From a bacterium (GTDB lineage: Bacteria; T1Sed10-126), in assembly GCA_003557545.1 (NCBI GenBank), contig PWOD01000164.1, positions 1 through 20,350 on the forward strand: a DNA stretch of 20,350 nt. Reading direction: 5' to 3'. Both the position numbers and the translations under genes were made by a program. Of the stretch, positions 4 to 17,814 are shown in pieces. Each line of letters opens with the position of its first letter. Position 1 is the stretch's first letter. The notes beneath the pieces are model-generated. The model had not been told where the DNA came from and ran no database searches. It was given only the letters and a program-made list of their open reading frames with translations.

Positions 4-3000
4 TTAACGAATTATTGTGAGAGTATTGGAACTACTCCTACCGCCGCCACTCACCCGGTAGATATAACTGCCGGAAGCAACTGACGGCCACCAGCTGGCC
101 AACCGATCACTATCCACAACAAGGGATTCCCTGACAATTCTGCGCCCCTGTAGATTAAACAGATCAAGCTGCACCAGATCTCCATAATCCTGGGGTAAAT
201 AAAAGCTTACCGGACCGCCCAGATCTCCACGGTAAGGATTGGGATATGAATAAACTCTCTCCGTTATCAATACCGGGGCCGTATCAGGATCATCCAGATC
301 ATCCAGAATTTGCTCGCCGACCGACCAGTCATGATAGGCTGCACCGGTTATATACCAGACCGGAGAGTTGCCGGTTACTTCAGCGGCAAGGAAGGGATAG
401 GCAGCATTTTTCAGCTGATCGGTCTCCTCAATATTCCAGCCGGCTGCCCGATAGGTCTCAATATCACGCATTCCTCCGGGAGTTCTTGCAGTCCCGCCAA
501 CACTTGCTGCCTGCAGGGTTTGCTGACTGTCCCAGAAACTATCCTCAACCACTCCTCCACCCACCGGACTATGTCCGACCAGACCACCCTTGACTCGTGC
601 TCCTTTGACCTCACCGCTCGCATAGGCCCGGCGAATCAGCCCGGCATTATAAGCGACAAGCCCACCGGTCTGAAAGCCTTCACCCCGAACATCGACCGTC
701 GAGTAAAGATCGACCAGCTCTCCACCGGAGAGATTTTCGCCGACAAACCCGCCCGTACGAAACTCCCCACTTACAGTCCCCCGGGCGGTGGAGTTAACTA
801 TACGTCCACTGTTTCCACCGGCCAGCCCGCCGGCATATAATCCACTGCTAACTAACTCCACATCGGCCTGCAACCGCTCAAGTTGACCGCCAATAACCCG
901 ACCGACCAGACCGCCACTGTAGATTCCATCCCCCATAACTGTCCCGTCAACACGACAATCTGTTATGGTCCCTTCAGATATCTGCCCAACCAGCAAGCCA
1001 ACATTATTAGATCCACTAACCTCTGCATCAAGCAGCTCCAGGGAAGTTATCTCCCCGGACTCGCCAACAAAACCAAACAACCCGGCTGCCCCGCTGCCCG
1101 GCCGCTCAACTCTCAATCCACTCAGGCTCTCTCCCCGACCGTCAAACCCTCCTGTGAATGGTGTCACAGCCGTACCCACAGGTTTCCAGCCCAGACCACC
1201 ATTGGCAGTCGAACCGGCCAGTCCATCATATCCCGGACTGGTTTGATCAAGCGATTGCATCAGTTTGTACTTGGCTGCCGGTTCACGTCTCAGTTGATCC
1301 AGCTGATACCAGTTATTCACCAGATATGGTTCGACCAAACTGCCCGCACCACCGGCAAAATCCAGCACATCAATATTCACACTATCAGAGGTATCAAAGC
1401 TTCTGACCAGCAGATTTATCCCATCATCCTCACGGGCCGTCAGATAACTTAATTCAACAACAGTTCCACTACGTCCCGGTAATCCTACCTGGGCTGTTGC
1501 AACAACCTGCTGATCAACCACCAGCTCTATCGTCTGAATGTCCGGATAATCTCCAGTATTATCGATCCCGGCGATAACCTGCACCTCCTGCTGTTTTACT
1601 ACCCGCAGCAGACTGGAGCTTTGATCGATTTGCACAATAAATTTCGGGTCCAGATAAACCCGCAGCGGCCAGGAATCATAACTATCCTCTGATTCCACCC
1701 ACAAAACTGCCCCATCATCCTTACGGGCCGTCAGATAGTCAAACTCAACTGTCTGTTCTGTATGGCCATCAAGGGTCAGCTGATGAGACCCCTGGTGGGT
1801 TCCTTCTACCAGAAAGTTGATCTCCTGCGTCCCCGGAAGATCACCCGTATTCTCCACCGTTACAACAATCACAGCAGTATCCCCCTGGTCAACCGTATCC
1901 GAACCATCCTGGTTGACAACCTGGTCGACTTGAATTTCAAAATAAGGAAATGTAAGAACAGTCAGCTCAACTGCATCATAAGTTCCCTCCCAACCAAGCT
2001 GCATTTCAGCCCCAGTCTCTTCGGCCAGTGCCTGCTGATAAAGAAAACTCACAGGAACTGTCTCGCCAACAGGTAAAATAAGATCGCTTTTGTCAATAAA
2101 AACACCGTCAAAATAGAACTCTATAGTTTGACCGTATTTAACCGGTTCAAGGCTGGAAACCAGGGCAGTAATCGAAACATCCTCACCTTCAACAACCTCG
2201 GTGTCAGTAGTTAGTTGATCAATTTTTAGTTGAAACTGCGGCTGGTCAAAAACCACAAACTGTTGGCTAAAAATATCGTTATCGGTACTGACTGAAAAAT
2301 CAACAAAATCAGTGGCAGGTGGGGGATTATATTTAAACTTTAAAAACTCCGTTTCGCCCCCCGACAACAGCAGAGGGCGGCTATCAAACAACTGACCGTC
2401 AACTTCAAACTGTACCAGCTGACTGTAGCTCACATTATTGACGTTAGATACCTCAACCCCGAGATAAAGTTCGATCCCTTCGATCCCGGCCAACAATGTC
2501 TCATCCTCTTTTAGATCAATATAAAACTCAGCCGGGCGCAGGAGGGACAAACTGCGAAATTCCGGGACAGATTGTCTATCTAAACTTTCAAAATTAATCT
2601 GAATCTGAAATTCAGAATGAGAGGCGGACCAGGGTAAAGTTAAATCTTCCTGCTCTGTAAGATTGATTGCCTGAAATTTTTCTTCAGACGGCTGGCCCGG
2701 ACTACCTATGACATCCAACGAGATAATCTGATCCCTTGTCGAATAATCCATGGCCACAAGTTCAGGCTTGCCGGCCAGCATTGAAATCACATTGCTTCGC
2801 CAGTAACCAGTTTCAGATAACGGATTAACATCAACAGCTAAAGAGTGTAATTGAGGATTAATAGTTTCATCCTCAGTTCTAAAAAGCTGACGAATCCAGA
2901 GGTATTGATTAGATAGATCATCCCCCGGCGCAAGCCCGGGAAGGGGCGCGCCATTGACGGCTGGCTGCCAGTTGGTTGGTGGAGTATTATTATCAGTGTT

Positions 3001-4143
3001 AACAGCTGTAAAAATATCAATCCCTGTCCCGGACGGTTCAGTCGATTGCCATTCAATCAGAGAACTAGTCAGATCTTGAATTTCTCCCAGTGAAACCGGC
3101 TGGGAAATCCGTTCGCCTGGAGGGGGTGAACCGATTATTTCAACCCGTCCATGACCGGTCCTGACGCCAGACTGATTATGCTGGTTAGTCCCGTCATTAA
3201 ACGACCCGCCGCCGCCTTTCTGAGCACCACCGGAATAACCACCACCTCCACCACCGGAGCGACATCCCCCCATTGCACCGCCACCAAACCCACCCGGCCC
3301 GGCCGAACAGGTGGAAGTACCACCCTGGCCCCCCTGCCGGAATCCCTGAGTCTTCGAACCCCAGCTCAAAGCTGACCCTGAGGCCCCCGAATAAAAACCG
3401 GCCCCAGCTCCCCCATGAGCATTATTGTCATTACCACCCTGCCCATTAGTTCCACGGGTAGCCCAATTGGTTCCATGTGGTGCACCACCATCTGGTCCAG
3501 TCAACCCCGGGCTTCCGTTCCCCGGGTTGGTACTATTGCTGGCCCCACCGCCTCCTCCCGCCACCAACAAGGGGTCAGCCGTTGTATGTGTGCTACCGGT
3601 GGCAACAAAGGTCCCTCCGCCGCCTCCGGTCATCTGACCCTGGTGGCCAACCAGGATTAAAATATTTTCACCCTCAGTCAACTGAAAATCACCTGACATC
3701 ATCGCCCCCAGACCACCGGTTCCACCTGACATCCCTCCCTGGGCACCCCAGGCCGTTATCCGATAAGTACCGGTGGAGGGAACCACCCAGTTTTGAATTG
3801 TTCCATTATGACCGGTACCGGTATTGGTAAAAATATATTCAGTGGGCGGTGTGGTTTGCAGCTGAAGATTATCATTAACAACCCCCAGCCGCTCAGTTGA
3901 ATAGCTATTATTCCAGTCATCTGCAGTATTTTCACTAAATTCTACAAATGGATGTAGATTCCACTGAAGCCTATCGCCGTCGATGCTAAAATCTTCACCC
4001 GCAGCAAATTCAGACCAATCGGATTGGCTGGTCCAGCTAACAAGTTCATTGGCATTGACCGGGGACAACCCCAAAAAACAAACCACTGTTAAAACCAGCA
4101 AATAGACCGAGACTATCAACAATTTTCCTACAGTTTTGACCAT
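4..4143 (-). CDS. Large secreted mosaic surface protein (Gly-rich, CARDB-like, GLUG, FlgD/T9SS-like C-terminus)
   Basis: Encodes 1379 residues, complete, with its TAA stop at positions 4-6. Residues 1-31 form a signal peptide with a hydrophobic core and likely cleavage after SPVNA. From residue 103 (YIFTNTGTG) to about 336 (GRVEII) lies a glycine-rich domain of the ALK/LTK type, with LVAGGGGGAS and FYSGASGSAL motifs. Residues of about 540-930 hold CARDB-like adhesion repeats that recur with DNTGD and YLTARxDDG. About 930-1205 is a GLUG region, introduced by PYLVNNWYQLDQL and FTGGFDGRGESLSGL and carrying repeated GGLVG/GGLAG units. Residues 1299-1379 (YSYPNPYRGD, LFNLQGRRI, SGSYIYRV) resemble a FlgD Ig-like or T9SS type A sorting domain. 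The inferred role is a cell-surface or released adhesin or scaffold; no catalytic motif was seen. An AGGGAG ribosome site lies about 12 nt before the ATG. It stands alone on its strand, divergent from the next operon. Confidence 0.85.
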   Translation of the reverse strand: MVKTVGKLLIVSVYLLVLTVVCFLGLSPVNANELVSWTSQSDWSEFAAGEDFSIDGDRLQWNLHPFVEFSENTADDWNNSYSTERLGVVNDNLQLQTTPPTEYIFTNTGTGHNGTIQNWVVPSTGTYRITAWGAQGGMSGGTGGLGAMMSGDFQLTEGENILILVGHQGQMTGGGGGTFVATGSTHTTADPLLVAGGGGGASNSTNPGNGSPGLTGPDGGAPHGTNWATRGTNGQGGNDNNAHGGAGAGFYSGASGSALSWGSKTQGFRQGGQGGTSTCSAGPGGFGGGAMGGCRSGGGGGGYSGGAQKGGGGSFNDGTNQHNQSGVRTGHGRVEIIGSPPPGERISQPVSLGEIQDLTSSLIEWQSTEPSGTGIDIFTAVNTDNNTPPTNWQPAVNGAPLPGLAPGDDLSNQYLWIRQLFRTEDETINPQLHSLAVDVNPLSETGYWRSNVISMLAGKPELVAMDYSTRDQIISLDVIGSPGQPSEEKFQAINLTEQEDLTLPWSASHSEFQIQINFESLDRQSVPEFRSLSLLRPAEFYIDLKEDETLLAGIEGIELYLGVEVSNVNNVSYSQLVQFEVDGQLFDSRPLLLSGGETEFLKFKYNPPPATDFVDFSVSTDNDIFSQQFVVFDQPQFQLKIDQLTTDTEVVEGEDVSITALVSSLEPVKYGQTIEFYFDGVFIDKSDLILPVGETVPVSFLYQQALAEETGAEMQLGWEGTYDAVELTVLTFPYFEIQVDQVVNQDGSDTVDQGDTAVIVVTVENTGDLPGTQEINFLVEGTHQGSHQLTLDGHTEQTVEFDYLTARKDDGAVLWVESEDSYDSWPLRVYLDPKFIVQIDQSSSLLRVVKQQEVQVIAGIDNTGDYPDIQTIELVVDQQVVATAQVGLPGRSGTVVELSYLTAREDDGINLLVRSFDTSDSVNIDVLDFAGGAGSLVEPYLVNNWYQLDQLRREPAAKYKLMQSLDQTSPGYDGLAGSTANGGLGWKPVGTAVTPFTGGFDGRGESLSGLRVERPGSGAAGLFGFVGESGEITSLELLDAEVSGSNNVGLLVGQISEGTITDCRVDGTVMGDGIYSGGLVGRVIGGQLERLQADVELVSSGLYAGGLAGGNSGRIVNSTARGTVSGEFRTGGFVGENLSGGELVDLYSTVDVRGEGFQTGGLVAYNAGLIRRAYASGEVKGARVKGGLVGHSPVGGGVVEDSFWDSQQTLQAASVGGTARTPGGMRDIETYRAAGWNIEETDQLKNAAYPFLAAEVTGNSPVWYITGAAYHDWSVGEQILDDLDDPDTAPVLITERVYSYPNPYRGDLGGPVSFYLPQDYGDLVQLDLFNLQGRRIVRESLVVDSDRLASWWPSVASGSYIYRVSGGGRSSSNTLTIIR
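1421..1737. repeat. Near-identical 26-bp DNA repeat in successive CARDB-like modules
   Basis: Positions 1421-1446 and 1712-1737 match at 25 of 26 bases, with a period of about 291 bp (97 codons, so in frame). Both copies encode the end of a module (YLTAREDDG and YLTARKDDG). The DNA identity suggests fairly recent duplication or gene conversion of one module inside the secreted protein. Confidence 0.75.
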
Positions 4144-6939: not shown

Positions 6940-6974
6940 TCATAGTTGAATTATTGAAAGGAGTGTTACACTCG

Positions 6975-8501
6975 ATGGCTACTGCTTACAAGATCCAAAA
7001 AGACACCTATCACGACTCTGTAACCCTGATGTTAATAGCAAATGACCTCAAACAGCTCGATCGAATTGAAGAAGCAATGGTAGGGATGGGAACTGACTAT
7101 AACCTTGATAGTCTCAAACGGCTGAAGATCAACCTTCCCGAACTTAATAAATTAACTCCCAGCGACCTGATTATTGCGGTCAAAGGAGAAACAGAAGATG
7201 TCGCGGAGCAGGCGGTTGAGATGGCAGAAAACAAACTCACAGAACAGACACAGATCTCCAGCAATCAGGGTGACTATGCCCCGCCAACTCAACGCGGTGC
7301 TGCAAGCATACTTCCAGGAGCCAATCTGGTATTAATCTCAATTCCGGGGGAATACGCTGCCGACGAAGCGGACAAAGCACTTGAGGCCAATCGCCACGTG
7401 ATGCTTTTTTCCGACAATGTCAGTCTGGAAGAGGAACTGCGCTTAAAAAATAAAGCAGTCGAAAGAGAGCTGCTGATGATGGGCCCCGATTGTGGAACTT
7501 CGATCATTAACGGCGTTCCCCTGGCCTTCGCCAACGCAATCAGAAGAGGACCGATTGGGCTGGTTGCAGCTTCCGGAACCGGTTTACAGGAATGCAGCAG
7601 TTTAATCCATCAACTCGGGGGAGGAATCAGCCAGGCAATCGGAGTCGGAGGTCGAGACCTGTCCGAAAAAATTGCTGGCAAAATGACGATCCAGGCCGCT
7701 CAGGCACTGGGCAAAGATCCCCAGACCGAGCTAATCACCCTGATATCCAAGCCGCCGGACGAAGCAGTCTTAGACCGCTTATTTAAAGAACTCAAAAAAT
7801 TGGACAAGCCTGTGGTGATCTATTTTATCGGAGCCGACCCCGAGCTGATCGAAAAAAATGGTTTTACTGCAGCCACTGATCTTGAGGATGCAGCGATTAA
7901 ATCCTGTCAGAAAGCAGGAATTGGAAAACTTACACCACTGATTGCCCAAAAAACGTTAGAGGAATACGCCCGAAAAGCCGGACCGATTAAGGGATACCTG
8001 CGGGGACTCTACTCAGGAGGAACCCTCTGTGATGAGGCCCAGCGAATTCTGATAAAAGATTTACAACCGATTTTTTCTAACACGCCGGTGGAGGGATGCC
8101 AACAACTTGAGGATCCTTATCTGAGCCAGGCCCACACAATTATTGATCTGGGCGAAGATGAATTTACCCGGGGACGGGCCCATCCAATGATCGATCCAAC
8201 TCTACGCAAAGAACGTCTTATTCAGGAGATGAGTGATCCGGAGGTCGGACTGATACTGCTCGACCTGGTGCTTGGTTATGGCGCCCATCCAGATATGGCT
8301 TCAGAACTTCAGGAGGCAATTATAGAGGGCCGTAAACAGCTGCCCAAACCTCCTGCCGTGGCCGTTTCCATCTGCGGAACCGAAGAGGATCCCCAGGATT
8401 ATCAGCAGCAGCGTAAAATTCTGGAGAAAAGTGATGTTTACGTTTTTCCCTCACATGTCTCCATGGTAAAATTTACCCAACTATGTTTGAATGAGGATTG
8501 A
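6975..8501 (+). CDS. fdrA: FdrA/AllF-like protein, C-terminally shortened (acyl-CoA synthetase-fold carbamoyltransferase subunit)
   Basis: Encodes 508 residues from the ATG at 6975, chosen because AAAGGAG (6957-6963) lies 11 bp upstream; the TTG at 6954 has no ribosome site. The fold is that of the succinyl-CoA synthetase alpha superfamily. Visible motifs are GPDCGTS at 170-176, the following GLVAASGTGLQE, the VGGRDLS loop, a second-domain start GYLRGLYSGGTLCDEA, and GRAHPMIDPTLR at 400-411. The last is almost identical to the GRPHPMIDPTLR that I recall in E. coli FdrA. E. coli FdrA (AllF) is reported to act with YlbE (AllG) and YlbF (AllH) as oxamate carbamoyltransferase, which splits oxalurate to oxamate and carbamoyl phosphate during anaerobic allantoin use. 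This copy stops about 50 residues early, and the missing tail is encoded by the next gene. FdrA family membership is firm; oxalurate as substrate is inference. Confidence 0.9.
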   Translation: MATAYKIQKDTYHDSVTLMLIANDLKQLDRIEEAMVGMGTDYNLDSLKRLKINLPELNKLTPSDLIIAVKGETEDVAEQAVEMAENKLTEQTQISSNQGDYAPPTQRGAASILPGANLVLISIPGEYAADEADKALEANRHVMLFSDNVSLEEELRLKNKAVERELLMMGPDCGTSIINGVPLAFANAIRRGPIGLVAASGTGLQECSSLIHQLGGGISQAIGVGGRDLSEKIAGKMTIQAAQALGKDPQTELITLISKPPDEAVLDRLFKELKKLDKPVVIYFIGADPELIEKNGFTAATDLEDAAIKSCQKAGIGKLTPLIAQKTLEEYARKAGPIKGYLRGLYSGGTLCDEAQRILIKDLQPIFSNTPVEGCQQLEDPYLSQAHTIIDLGEDEFTRGRAHPMIDPTLRKERLIQEMSDPEVGLILLDLVLGYGAHPDMASELQEAIIEGRKQLPKPPAVAVSICGTEEDPQDYQQQRKILEKSDVYVFPSHVSMVKFTQLCLNED

Positions 8502-8506
8502 TAAAA

Positions 8507-8680
8507 ATGTCTGATTTGAACGGACTTTTCGAACAGAAGATCCAGGTGATCAACCTGGGGCTTCCCGCTTTTTACAAAGATCTACAGCACCAGGAAATAC
8601 CGGTGGTTCAGGTTGACTGGAATCCCCCGGCGCGAGGTAACAAAAAGCTCCAATCATTGCTTGGCAAACTGAAAAAATAA
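8507..8680 (+). CDS. Stand-alone FdrA C-terminal domain protein (57 residues)
   Basis: The ATG at 8507 is preferred because GAGGA (8493-8497) lies 9 bp upstream, inside the end of fdrA. A TTG at 8498 would overlap the fdrA stop but has no spaced ribosome site. The protein reads INLGLPAFYKDLQ, then VVQVDWNPPARGNKKLQSLL. This matches the C-terminal tail of full-length E. coli FdrA as I recall it (VINIGLRSFALEL, then GGNKKLARLLERL). FdrA at 508 plus this at 57 gives 565 residues, against 555 for E. coli FdrA. It is therefore a split-off FdrA domain, probably a small subunit of the same complex. Because it has its own ribosome site and a clean start, it does not look like a frameshift or sequencing error. 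Similar short proteins are annotated elsewhere as fdrA domain proteins. Confidence 0.85.
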   Translation: MSDLNGLFEQKIQVINLGLPAFYKDLQHQEIPVVQVDWNPPARGNKKLQSLLGKLKK

Positions 8681-8724
8681 TTTTTTTACTGAATTAAACT
8701 GTTATTCCACCAGGAGGAGATAGA

Positions 8725-9975
8725 ATGGAAATTGATTTAGAGAGAGCAAACCAGCAGGCGATTGAAAAGATCCAGGGGGGCAACCCGATTTTAAAGGGAA
8801 TAGGAATAGCCGGGGAGGTTGTCCCCGGGATGGATGAAAAACTGATTTTACACGCTGGTCCACCGGTTGACTGGGAAAATATGAGTGGTCCAACCCGGGG
8901 AGCTGTTATTGGAGCACTGATCTATGAAGGTCTAGCAGCCGGAGCAACTGAAGCCGAAGAGCTGGCCGCATCCGGCGAGATCAAGTTTGAACCCTGGCAT
9001 GAGCACAACGGGGTCGGTCCGATGGCGGGAGTAGCAACCAGCAGCATGCCGGTCTGGATCGTAGAAAATACTCAGTTTAATACTGAAGCCTACTGTACTT
9101 TTAATGAGGGTTTAGGTAAAGTCCTCCGCTACGGTGCCTATGCCCCGGAAGTAATTGACCATCTTAAATGGATGGAAACAGAACTGGCACCGATCCTTAA
9201 GGAGACTCTGGCCAATCTTGACAAACCTCTCAATCTCAAGAGCCTGATTGCAGAAGCGCTGGAGATGGGTGATGAGACCCACAATCGTAATCGCGCCGCC
9301 ACCTCCCTGCTCTATCGTAAACTAACCCCGGCACTGCTGGAAACCTCATTCAAAACCGAGCAGAAAAAACAGGTGCTGGAGTTTATAGATTCCAACGATC
9401 ATTTTTTCCTCAACCTCAGCATGCCAGCCGCAAAAGCCATGATTATGGCGGCAGAAAATATCGATGGATGTTCAATTGTAACCACCGTGGCCCGGAACGG
9501 AACGGAAACAGGTATCAGAGTTTCCGGTCTCGGCGATCGCTGGTTCACAGCACCGGCTCCGGTGCCGGAGGGGCTGCTGTTCTCCGGCTACTCAAAGGAG
9601 GACAGCTGTGCCGATATTGGTGACAGCACAATCACTGAAACCGTAGGGCTGGGAGCCTTTTCAATGGCTGCCTCCCCGGCGATTGTCAAATTTGTTGGGG
9701 GCTCGGTCGAGGATGCTTTCAACTTCACCCGTAAAATGTACGAAATCTGCGATGCCGAGTCAGAAAACTTCAAGGTGGCCCCGCTTGATTTCCGGGGTGC
9801 CCCCACCGGGATCAACCTATTAAAAATCTGTGAACTGGGTATAACCCCCCAGATTAACACCGGGATAGCTCACAAAGATCCCGGCATAGGACAGATCGGT
9901 GCCGGTCTCGTCCAGGCACCGATGGAATGTTTTGAGAAGGCCCTGGAAGCTTTTGTTGAAAAATACGCTGAATAA
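8725..9975 (+). CDS. ylbE: YlbE/AllG-like DUF1116 protein (putative carbamoyltransferase subunit)
   Basis: Encodes 416 residues, against 419 for E. coli YlbE. An AGGAGG ribosome site sits 6-8 bp before the ATG. Conserved DUF1116 blocks occur in order: LHAGPP (from about residue 42), GPTRGAVIGALIYEGLA, HNGVGPMAGV, NEGLGKVLRYGAY, MGDETHNRN, FFLNLSM, VARNGTETGIRVSGLGDRWF, DIGDSTITETVGLGAF, and near the end INTGIAHKDPGIGQIGAG. All match the E. coli protein closely. Together with FdrA it is expected to form the core of a carbamoyl-transfer enzyme acting in the cytoplasm. The third E. coli component, YlbF (DUF2877), is not in this window. It follows the FdrA tail gene by 44 bp and precedes the cyclase gene by 37 bp in one operon. 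Confidence 0.92.
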   Translation: MEIDLERANQQAIEKIQGGNPILKGIGIAGEVVPGMDEKLILHAGPPVDWENMSGPTRGAVIGALIYEGLAAGATEAEELAASGEIKFEPWHEHNGVGPMAGVATSSMPVWIVENTQFNTEAYCTFNEGLGKVLRYGAYAPEVIDHLKWMETELAPILKETLANLDKPLNLKSLIAEALEMGDETHNRNRAATSLLYRKLTPALLETSFKTEQKKQVLEFIDSNDHFFLNLSMPAAKAMIMAAENIDGCSIVTTVARNGTETGIRVSGLGDRWFTAPAPVPEGLLFSGYSKEDSCADIGDSTITETVGLGAFSMAASPAIVKFVGGSVEDAFNFTRKMYEICDAESENFKVAPLDFRGAPTGINLLKICELGITPQINTGIAHKDPGIGQIGAGLVQAPMECFEKALEAFVEKYAE

Positions 9976-10012
9976 ACTGCAACATCCATAATCTTTTAAG
10001 GAGGAATTTCAA

Positions 10013-10792
10013 ATGGTAACAATGTATGATTTAACTCAGGATCTAAGTATTCACACCCCACCCTGGCCCAGTTACATGCCACTGCAGTTGCAATATTTCA
10101 AACGGATTGCCGGTGCTCACCAGGGGCAGGGTGCCAACGGTCAGATCATCAAGACCAGCATGCATGTCGGCACCCATATAGATGGGGAGAAACATTTTGA
10201 TGCCAAAGGACGGACAATTGGCCAGGTCCCCCTGGAAGAGTTCTGCGGCGAAGGTGTAGTTGTTGATATTTCTGATGAAGTTGAGGATTTTTCACTATAT
10301 ACCCCGGAGATGCTGGAAGCAAAGGCGGAAATTAAAAAGGGTGATATCCTGATCATAAATACCGGCTACCACAGGTATGCCTGGGATCAGGAAGAATGTG
10401 ATGAAGTACGCTACATGGTAAAACATCCGGGTCCGGACCCAGAATTTCACAAATGGGCCAAGGAGAAAGAGTTCGCCTGGATCGGAGTCGACTGTGGCAG
10501 CGCCGACCATCCGATGAATACCATCCTCCGGGACTGGCATCCCCGCCTGTTCAAAAAAGCTGAGGCCAAACTGCAGGCCGATTACGGAAAAAGCTGGGAG
10601 GAGATGTTTCCTTACGAAGAATATTACCAGGTGATGCATCTTGATCTATTTCCAGAAGGTTTGATCCACGCTGAAAATCTTGGTGGTGCGATTGATGAAA
10701 TCAGTAATCAACGCAAATGGATTGGACTATTTCCCTGGAAAGGAATTGAAATGGAGTCTTCAATCTGTCGGATTGTTGCCTTCGACTTTTAA
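10013..10792 (+). CDS. Cyclase-family metal-dependent hydrolase (kynurenine formamidase/isatin hydrolase-like)
   Basis: Encodes 259 residues. AAGGAGG (9998-10004) is 8 bp before the ATG at 10013; an ATG three codons later is less well spaced. The family's metal-binding motif HxGTHxDxxxH is complete at residues 51-61 (HVGTHIDGEKH), and VDCGSADHP in the second half matches the conserved strand of the fold. Known members hydrolyse amide or cyclic amide bonds in substrates such as N-formylkynurenine and isatin, using Zn or Mn. A segment of about 30 residues after LRDWHPRLF is an insertion relative to short formamidases and resembles longer uncharacterised members. As the last gene of the fdrA-ylbE operon it probably makes or consumes the carbamoyl or oxamate-type intermediate. 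The exact substrate cannot be read from sequence. Confidence 0.85.
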   Translation: MVTMYDLTQDLSIHTPPWPSYMPLQLQYFKRIAGAHQGQGANGQIIKTSMHVGTHIDGEKHFDAKGRTIGQVPLEEFCGEGVVVDISDEVEDFSLYTPEMLEAKAEIKKGDILIINTGYHRYAWDQEECDEVRYMVKHPGPDPEFHKWAKEKEFAWIGVDCGSADHPMNTILRDWHPRLFKKAEAKLQADYGKSWEEMFPYEEYYQVMHLDLFPEGLIHAENLGGAIDEISNQRKWIGLFPWKGIEMESSICRIVAFDF

Positions 10793-11021: not shown

Positions 11022-12653
11022 ATGAAACTTAACAAAATTATGCTGTGCTGTTTCACCGGGCTCGTCATCATTGTACTGCTGGCGACTCCCGGCCTGGCCG
11101 GTACGTTTCGAACAGTTGGTGCTCGGGCGGACGGTATGGGAGGAAGCGGAGTTGCAGCGACAGCGGACGAACATGCCGGTCTATGGAATCCTGCAATGCA
11201 AGCCCTGAAACCGGGCTTCGCCGGGGGATTACAGATTGGAATAGAGGCCCAGATAACTAATGACTTTCTCGATGAGATCCAGGATCTGCAAAATTTTGAA
11301 GATGATTTTGATAAGCTGGATAATATTATCGACAGCGGCTTTTCCGACACTACGGCCTTTGCCCATTTTAACCGCCTAATAAAAGAACTACAGGATGTTA
11401 ACCAACCGGGCCAGGGACTACTAATCGACATCACCGGAGGACTTAACTTTGCCTACGACAACTGGTCGATCTCGGCTAATAACTTCAGTTCCCTATCGGG
11501 ACATACAACTTTTCAACTGGAAGATTTAATGATCGGAGATATTACCGGTGACGGCCAGGCGATCGGCCGGGAATTTATCGCCGGTGATCCCAATTCCACA
11601 ACGATAACCGATCGCACCCCCACCGAATATTCCGAAGCAACGGTTAAACTGATTGAACAACGGCTGAAACAATCCCTCGACGGCGATGATTTTGCCACAG
11701 TTTTTGGATTTGACACGGGAACCACTGCCAGTTCTGCAGCACGACATATAGCCTGGCGGCTGGAAAAAGGTGGTTTTGCCGGCGATACGGTAACCGATCA
11801 GATTCTCAACAGTTCAAGCCGGCTACTAATTCCCGGCATCGTGACAATCGCCCGGGGCGACACAGACAGTTTCGATACCGAAAACCAGCAGCTCATTTTA
11901 CAGGGAGCAATGATCAATGAGATTGCCCTGAACTACGCCCATCCAGAACCGGTTGTCGAACTATTTGGCAGTCCTATATATCTCGGTGGAACACTAAACT
12001 ATCTACAGGGAGAGCTGGCGAGAGTTGAATATCTGGTTTTTGAAGATAAGGATATTGGTGACGAGATAAGCGACAGCTTAGACGAAGGTCCCCGGAAAAG
12101 CTCGGCTTTCAGTCTTGATCTGGGTGCCGTCTGGGACGGTGCAAAAGAGCATGGTTTGCGAGCAGGTTTAAGCGGACGATATCTGAACAATCCCAGTTTT
12201 AATTTTCCCGAAATAAACGGTCAAACTAAAAAGCTCAGATTGAAATCACAATGGCGAGCCGGTTTTTCCGGATATCCGCTTGAATGGATCTACCGGTTAA
12301 CAGATACCGATGAACAACGGTTTGGTAGAGACTGGTGGCAAATCTCTGTCGACTATGACCTGACCAGAAATCGGACTCTGCTGCCCGACTATCACACCCA
12401 GTATCTGGCGATCGGCAATGAATTCAACATTTTCAACCGGCCCTGGATAAATTTTGCCCTGCGAGCAGGTTTACGTACCAATCGAGCTGAAAGCCGGGAA
12501 GGTAAGCTCTATACAGTGGGTCTGGGAATTCAGCTGGTGCGGGTCAATATCGACCTGAGCGGAACTATCAGCGATCGTAAAACACGGGATGAAGATGGCA
12601 ATAAATTTCCCACGGTTGCCGGCGGTTCATTAAACCTCTCGATGCGATTTTAA
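11022..12653 (+). CDS. Outer-membrane beta-barrel protein, TraF_2/PorV/FadL-like
   Basis: Encodes 543 residues with a clear signal peptide (KLNKIMLCCFTGLVIIVLLA) and likely cleavage after PGLAG or GLA. The mature start, ARADGMGGSGVAATADEHAGLWNPA, is the N-terminal signature shared by TraF_2 (PF13729), UPF0164, PorV and FadL-like barrels. The C-terminal half alternates polar and hydrophobic residues as barrel strands do (RAGLSGRYLN, FALRAGLRTN, YTVGLGIQLV) and ends with an aromatic residue (LNLSMRF). A GGGAG site precedes the ATG. Its presence implies an outer membrane. Function is unknown: hydrophobic-compound import and surface-protein secretion are both possible. The TraF name comes from database convention and does not imply conjugation. 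Confidence 0.75.
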   Translation: MKLNKIMLCCFTGLVIIVLLATPGLAGTFRTVGARADGMGGSGVAATADEHAGLWNPAMQALKPGFAGGLQIGIEAQITNDFLDEIQDLQNFEDDFDKLDNIIDSGFSDTTAFAHFNRLIKELQDVNQPGQGLLIDITGGLNFAYDNWSISANNFSSLSGHTTFQLEDLMIGDITGDGQAIGREFIAGDPNSTTITDRTPTEYSEATVKLIEQRLKQSLDGDDFATVFGFDTGTTASSAARHIAWRLEKGGFAGDTVTDQILNSSSRLLIPGIVTIARGDTDSFDTENQQLILQGAMINEIALNYAHPEPVVELFGSPIYLGGTLNYLQGELARVEYLVFEDKDIGDEISDSLDEGPRKSSAFSLDLGAVWDGAKEHGLRAGLSGRYLNNPSFNFPEINGQTKKLRLKSQWRAGFSGYPLEWIYRLTDTDEQRFGRDWWQISVDYDLTRNRTLLPDYHTQYLAIGNEFNIFNRPWINFALRAGLRTNRAESREGKLYTVGLGIQLVRVNIDLSGTISDRKTRDEDGNKFPTVAGGSLNLSMRF

Positions 12654-17180: not shown

Positions 17181-17209
17181 TTGATATTCGAACCAAACCG
17201 ATTTATACT
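17181..17209 (+). promoter_or_regulatory. Sigma-70-type promoter upstream of the pilin-like gene
   Basis: TTGATA (17181-17186) and TATACT (17204-17209) are 17 bp apart; each box matches consensus at 5 of 6 bases. This is the best promoter in the window. Transcription from about 17216 would give a leader of about 210 nt before the pilin-like ATG at 17425. Confidence 0.6.
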
Positions 17210-17424: not shown

Positions 17425-17814
17425 ATGAGCAGTTCAGCCCGGCCGACAAAAGCAAACGAACGGGGCCAGGTCATGTTAGAATACAGCCTGTTCATGGTGT
17501 TGATTGCTTTCATGGTCCTGTCTATTTTTATTATATTGGACCCTCAAATCAGGGATTTCTTTGCCCGGTCGATCGGTGAAGAGACGGTTGAAACTGCGCG
17601 GGAAGAGTTGGAACGTTCAATCCAGGAAACAGCCGTAGAGTATCAAACCTACCAGACCGGCGTTCGTTATGAGGAGGGTGATGTAGTTAAAAATCCTGAT
17701 GACGACAAACTCTACGTTGCCATCCTGGAACATACTGCCTATGACGGAGAAAATCCAGAGTTCCCATTTGACCGCAGCCCCCCACACCCGGATTTTTGGA
17801 AATTAAAAGAATAG
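17425..17814 (+). CDS. Pilin-like protein with class III signal and C-terminal CBM5/12-like domain
   Basis: Encodes 129 residues. Residues 12-38 read ERGQVMLEYSLFMVLIAFMV and onward: a basic leader, cleavage expected between Gly14 and Gln15, Glu at +5 (Glu19) and a hydrophobic helix of about 20 residues. This is the layout of Flp/TadE pilins and archaeal class III signal proteins. A charged helical stretch (about 50-72) follows. Residues 73-129 resemble a CBM5/12 chitin-binding-like module: VRYEEGDVV, then LYVAI, then GENPEF, then FWKLKE, with aromatics Tyr82, Tyr97 and Trp125 at the expected places. It is probably membrane-anchored or assembled and exposes a small carbohydrate-binding-like head. 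The ribosome site is weak. No assembly ATPase or prepilin peptidase is nearby. Confidence 0.65.
   Translation: MSSSARPTKANERGQVMLEYSLFMVLIAFMVLSIFIILDPQIRDFFARSIGEETVETAREELERSIQETAVEYQTYQTGVRYEEGDVVKNPDDDKLYVAILEHTAYDGENPEFPFDRSPPHPDFWKLKE

Follow-up and report, generated by a model that had tools for sequence, protein, structure and literature searches.

Flp pilins are minimal subunits, and the locus considered here raises the question of whether such a pilin can act as the carrier of a carbohydrate-binding module. The locus is an open reading frame at 17425-17814 on the forward strand of the window, by which we mean the whole stretch of 20,350 nucleotides that was analysed, and it encodes a protein of 129 residues with an ATG start and a TAG stop. 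An earlier note, made from the sequence of the window alone, had placed a frame of this length at exactly this position and had described its product as a pilin-like N-terminus with a class III signal joined to a CBM5/12-like head. Our analysis treats it as a modular Flp-type prepilin gene, taking in turn the gene, its two halves and the rest of the genome.

Gene structure and context

The frame is a real gene. Its codon usage, at 0.181 log-odds per codon where 1000 shuffles reach 0.052 at most, is typical of the window's genes, and this holds for both halves of the protein (0.194 in the pilin part and 0.164 in the head). The gene stands alone between a divergent gene for a DASS transporter and convergent genes for an Hpt protein and a hybrid histidine kinase, so that the claim of no assembly genes beside it is borne out. 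The good promoter of its own with which the gene had been credited fares less well, being reduced to a single match to 10 of 12 consensus positions (17181-17209, forward strand), approximately 215 bp upstream; four promoter-like sites around the gene, against 2.1 +/- 1.4 expected, are not clearly above chance for the region. No Shine-Dalgarno-like stretch was found ahead of the ATG.

The Flp-type pilin half

The protein begins with a class III leader peptide (residues 1-14; 17425-17466), with predicted cleavage after Gly14, and reads MSSSARPTKANERG|QVMLEYSLFMVLIAFMVLSIFIILDPQIRDFF across the cleavage site. The residues around this site, RG|QVMLEY, form an exact Flp-type prepilin motif, G14|Q15-V-M-L-E19-Y20, with Glu at +5 and Tyr at +6; the same G-X4-E-Y motif has been described for Flp pilins (PMC5430801). 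The hydrophobic N-terminal helix of the mature pilin (residues 15-38; 17467-17538) is followed by a helical stalk (residues 39-74; 17539-17646), the first part of which is paralogous to the C-terminal part of the Flp pilin encoded in the genome's own Tad locus. In the protein model, a helix spans residues 9-38 and the pLDDT is 85-96 by block across residues 11-40. Residues 12-68 are 39% identical to the Tad-locus flp product on contig C86 (BLASTP E-value 4e-12 in a single comparison), and a search of the whole genome with the window protein returns one other match, a 73-residue reading frame on C86, with an E-value of 3.5e-6.

The C86 flp passes the Pfam cut-off for Flp_Fap (33.7 versus 32.2 bits), whereas the window protein gives no Flp_Fap row at E-values up to 10. 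We therefore call it Flp-type by paralogy and motif, and not a formal member of PF04964. With that proviso, the earlier reading of a pilin-like N-terminus with a class III signal is upheld by the motif, the helix and the identity to the genome's own flp, and is refined to the Flp/Tad class. Matches to DUF7266, MxiC_C, SpoIISA and BlyA holin were discarded, all falling far under their cut-offs. Like the Flp/Tad (type IVc) pilins, the protein combines the G|X4-E-Y motif and a hydrophobic helix with paralogy to its own flp, but it is about twice the usual size, owing to its C-terminal head.

The CBM5/12-like head

The head (residues 75-129; 17647-17811) shares with CBM5/12 (PF02839, as in chitinase C and endoglucanase Z) the spacing Y76..Y82..G85-D86-V-V88..Y97-V-A99..T104..W125-K-L127. 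CBM_5_12 is the only Pfam family that matches the head alone, over residues 75-109, with an E-value of 0.0071 and 16.8 bits (0.052 and 14 bits for the whole protein), the E-values being computed for 24736 models. The score lies under the curated cut-off of 26.2 bits, and for this reason we speak of a CBM5/12-like or CBM5/12-derived head and not of a family member. The head differs from CBM5/12 in two further respects, besides being carried by a pilin and not by an enzyme. About a dozen residues, acidic and proline-rich, are inserted at approximately 107-123, ahead of the last Trp, and the exposed Trp-Trp (WW) position is occupied by L101-E102, as judged from an alignment with the modules on contig C90 (see below) and 20 modules of annotated records. 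Against a profile built from 23 chitinase-type modules the head scores 3.6 bits, which 89 of 4644 shuffles equal or exceed. An hhalign comparison of the head with the C90 modules alone was not significant, a PDB sequence search returned just Ndt80, at a chance-level E-value of 0.23 or worse, and a search of PHROGs gave no match.

Structure prediction adds to the case in a limited way. AlphaFold, run on the single sequence of residues 70-129, gave a poor model (mean pLDDT 55) with strands at 87-90, 95-99 and 125-127, and at this low confidence the layout may correspond to the three strands of CBM5/12. Foldseek found nothing significant with it, three matches standing at an E-value of 8. When 11 chains were re-aligned to the head model, just two reached Z of at least 2, namely 8yfp_A and 1wvv_B (Z of 2.3 and 2.0), values that are weak, near the floor and common by chance, so that their weight lies in the identity of the two matches. 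The enzymes concerned are a chitin-oligosaccharide deacetylase, matched at residues 363-406, and chitinase C, matched at residues 36-76. Profile searches locate CBM5/12 stretches in both, and the matched ranges are taken to be these domains, entry numbering being assumed. For the earlier description of a CBM5/12-like head, then, the spacing, the match of the head to CBM_5_12, the weak fold match and the sister pilin described below speak in favour, but the match stays under the Pfam cut-off, the WW pair is gone and the modelled strands come from a low-confidence prediction that Foldseek did not recognise.

A sister pilin with three CBM5/12 modules

A scan of the whole genome with CBM_5_12, at E-values up to 10, returns exactly two loci, the window gene and a place on contig C90. 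At the latter, three matches exceed the curated cut-off, modules 2-3 with an E-value of 5.7e-12 and module 1 with 4.2e-6. An independent search of the genome with the Tad-locus flp returned the place on C90 directly upstream of these modules. The layout of this second gene (7259-7888 of C90, reverse strand) is that of a Flp-type pilin (GQGLVEYGMLIGLIGLLVISAVVLMGP), a linker rich in Gly, Ser and Asp, and three CBM5/12 modules in tandem, which resemble the CBMs of GH18 chitinases and LPMOs. As C90 was outside the knowledge of the earlier note, it supports independently the existence of Flp-CBM5/12 fusions in this genome, and this unselected evidence is the decisive addition. Together with the sub-threshold Pfam match and the weak fold match, it supports the head of the window protein as a descendant of CBM5/12. 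The joining of a pilin module to a C-terminal module that is not specific to pilus biology is strong in C90 and probable in the window protein.

The C90 gene is broken once, by an in-frame TAG at codon 107, inside the first CBM5/12 module. A general reassignment of TAG was considered and rejected, because 7 of 54 long reading frames on the genome's contigs end in TAG. With TAG a normal stop, the interruption can be put down to an error of assembly, to a strain variant, to a pseudogene or to local read-through. Even though the gene is interrupted in the assembly, the predicted binding of its modules is more credible than that of the window head. For the latter, carbohydrate binding is plausible and should be regarded as putative; it is the weakest step in our interpretation, because the classical ligand residues are missing. 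The loss of the WW pair and the lack of recognition by the strict chitinase-type profile would both argue against simple sugar binding. No GH18 chitinase was found in either of the two genomes of the phylum.

Tad machinery in the genome

The earlier note had held that absence of any prepilin peptidase from the genome would count against its reading. The genome (2.15 Mb in 239 contigs, 92% complete) proves to encode one prepilin peptidase (Peptidase_A24), on contig C213, as well as a Tad machine. On C86, a Tad locus headed by flp includes two TadE-like genes, RcpC/CpaB, a secretin and a TadZ-like ATPase, and an 82-residue reading frame piece at the contig end, which has no Pfam match, is read as the start of TadA. 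Contig C52 holds the rest of a T2SSE/TadA-type ATPase, one TadE-like gene and two further genes, whose products are, by size and order, probably of the TadB and TadC type. The join of C86 to C52 is put forward on gene order, since the genes of the two contigs taken together stand in the same order as on contig C53 of the sister genus, where the locus is unbroken. Contig C167 encodes a classical type IV pilus, but the Flp motif makes assembly by that system the less likely option.

The TadZ-like ATPase of C86 (367-2022, reverse strand) begins with a receiver-like domain and ends with an RDD membrane domain. Such a fusion is unusual for a Tad locus, and a protein of similar length occurs at the same place in the sister genus.

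Proposed role and alternatives

We regard it as somewhat better than an even prospect that the product of the gene is a modular Flp pilin belonging to a Tad (type IVc) pilus, displaying a CBM5/12-derived head that most likely serves as an adhesive for polysaccharide or a glycosylated surface. The prepilin would be inserted in the membrane and cut behind Gly14 by the one prepilin peptidase that the genome encodes; the mature pilin would then join, as an accessory subunit, the pilus built by the Tad machine, because it has the polymerising helix in common with the main Flp pilin. Of these steps, the paralogy of the pilins, the Tad machinery and the sister fusion are demonstrated, whereas processing, incorporation, display and binding are predicted. 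The head may then be displayed on the filament surface or at the tip, as an adhesive module whose target has presumably drifted from plain crystalline chitin. If its TAG is an assembly error or a strain variant, or is read through, the C90 product would be the stronger binder, of the chitin or cellulose type. More tentatively, and as a proposal that we would sooner doubt than assert, the Tad pili of this lineage may be decorated with Flp pilins bearing CBM5/12-type modules (one divergent, three in tandem), which would form a dedicated polysaccharide grapple along the shaft or at the tip.

Several other explanations must be weighed. The head could retain the CBM5/12 fold without binding carbohydrate, acting as a spacer or in protein-protein contact on the pilus. 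This is suggested by the replacement of the WW pair with L101-E102, by the acidic, proline-rich insertion and by the absence of a GH18 chitinase partner from the genome. CBM-type modules are, however, mainly ligand-binding, and inspection of the sequence shows aromatic residues close to the insertion (F113, F115, F124 and W125) that could make up an alternative face for a ligand, so that we consider a mere spacer unlikely. That the likeness to CBM5/12 is due to chance, an unrelated small fold having been joined to a Flp pilin, would fit the sub-threshold Pfam score and the weakness of profile and structure support, but three observations speak against it: the genome's single other CBM_5_12 locus is likewise a Flp pilin, the Pfam E-value is already scaled to 24736 models, and the only two structural matches with Z of at least 2 are enzymes that bear CBM5/12. 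We give this explanation little credence.

The lack of a Shine-Dalgarno-like stretch, taken with the in-frame stop in the C90 sister, means that the pair could be decaying, and the window gene might on these grounds be a decaying paralog, an adhesive pilin turning into a pseudogene, as the interrupted C90 copy may be; the sister genus, moreover, has no ortholog. Nevertheless, the frame is intact, codon usage is gene-like in both halves and the pilin motif is fully preserved, all of which make decay a decidedly unlikely account. That the protein is a membrane protein with a class III signal that remains outside any pilus, as a surface-anchored stub, has in its favour that the gene is an orphan with no pilus genes adjacent. 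This we find scarcely credible, because the protein resembles that part of the genome's own Flp which polymerises. Orphan flp genes have, in addition, been described away from tad loci, and in Bdellovibrio they are functional and can be essential for predation (PMC5430801).

Distribution and comparison with known systems

Of 386 whole genomes from varied families scanned with a Flp profile, 67 have matches, and the distinct Flp frames read out of these matches, most of which end shortly after the helix, include no CBM5/12 head outside the window's genome. When the C90 protein served as the query in two further phyla, covering 2 and 39 genomes (five of which also belong to the sample of 386), plain Flp alone was returned. 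In all, no Flp-CBM5/12 fusion was found among approximately 420 sampled genomes outside the window's phylum, which is itself sampled by two genomes. In the second of these, that of the sister genus, there is no match to CBM_5_12 and no pilin gene at the matching transporter locus; its flp was not found either, and the likely reason is that its Tad contig stops just short of the expected place. No ortholog of the window protein emerged from the searches made, and scans for close relatives by peptide patterns (two on genome contigs and one on viral contigs) were negative. Searches of phages and plasmids by tblastn, with the whole protein or the head, returned chance-level matches, mostly to N4-type DNA primase.

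In another phylum, a Flp-type pilin (G209:C39:8000-9800) has a long linker rich in Ser and Thr, part of which is masked, together with a beta-type C-terminus of approximately 100 residues, and is another candidate for a modular Flp pilin.

Modular pilins, in which a binding domain is grafted on a pilin, have been catalogued on the basis of the IPR012902 motif (PMC8179133, PMC9934059). With type IV pilins of this kind, such as PilB and PilC of Streptococcus sanguinis, the window protein shares a binding module grafted for display on a filament, but they join the IPR012902 N-terminal motif to vWA, lectin and other modules, whereas the window protein has a CBM5/12-like module on a Flp carrier. 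The Kil system of Myxococcus, with its customised Tad tips (PMC12075869), shares the idea of Tad pili that expose variable domains; its carriers are TadEFG-like minor pilins, in contrast to the Flp-type carrier of the window. Toxin domains, too, have been mentioned in passing as being carried by Flp pilins (PMC12605009). A literature search returned no paper joining 'Flp pilin' and 'carbohydrate-binding module'. The combination of a Flp carrier with a CBM5/12-derived head is thus a variation on the established idea of modular pilins, and one not found in the sampled genomes or the literature searched. If our preferred reading is correct, the Flp pilin class itself would be usable as a carrier, customisation having so far been assigned to tip proteins of the TadE/F/G type, and an uncultured lineage would have a simple, testable route to grip insoluble polysaccharide. 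The head also offers a small domain open to binding tests in laboratory strains.

Other genes in the window

Elsewhere in the window, the product of 4-4143 on the reverse strand is large and secreted; it combines a Gly-rich region with CARDB and GLUG repeats, and its C-terminal tail resembles type IX sorting domains. The genome also has a PorV/TraF-like protein, encoded at 11022-12653 of the window. At 6954-10792, on the forward strand, genes for a FdrA-type acyl-CoA synthetase subunit, a second protein with no NCBIfam match and a hydrolase of the arylformamidase/cyclase family stand in a row. The second protein probably belongs with the FdrA-type subunit, and the row looks like a cluster for ureide or amide degradation.
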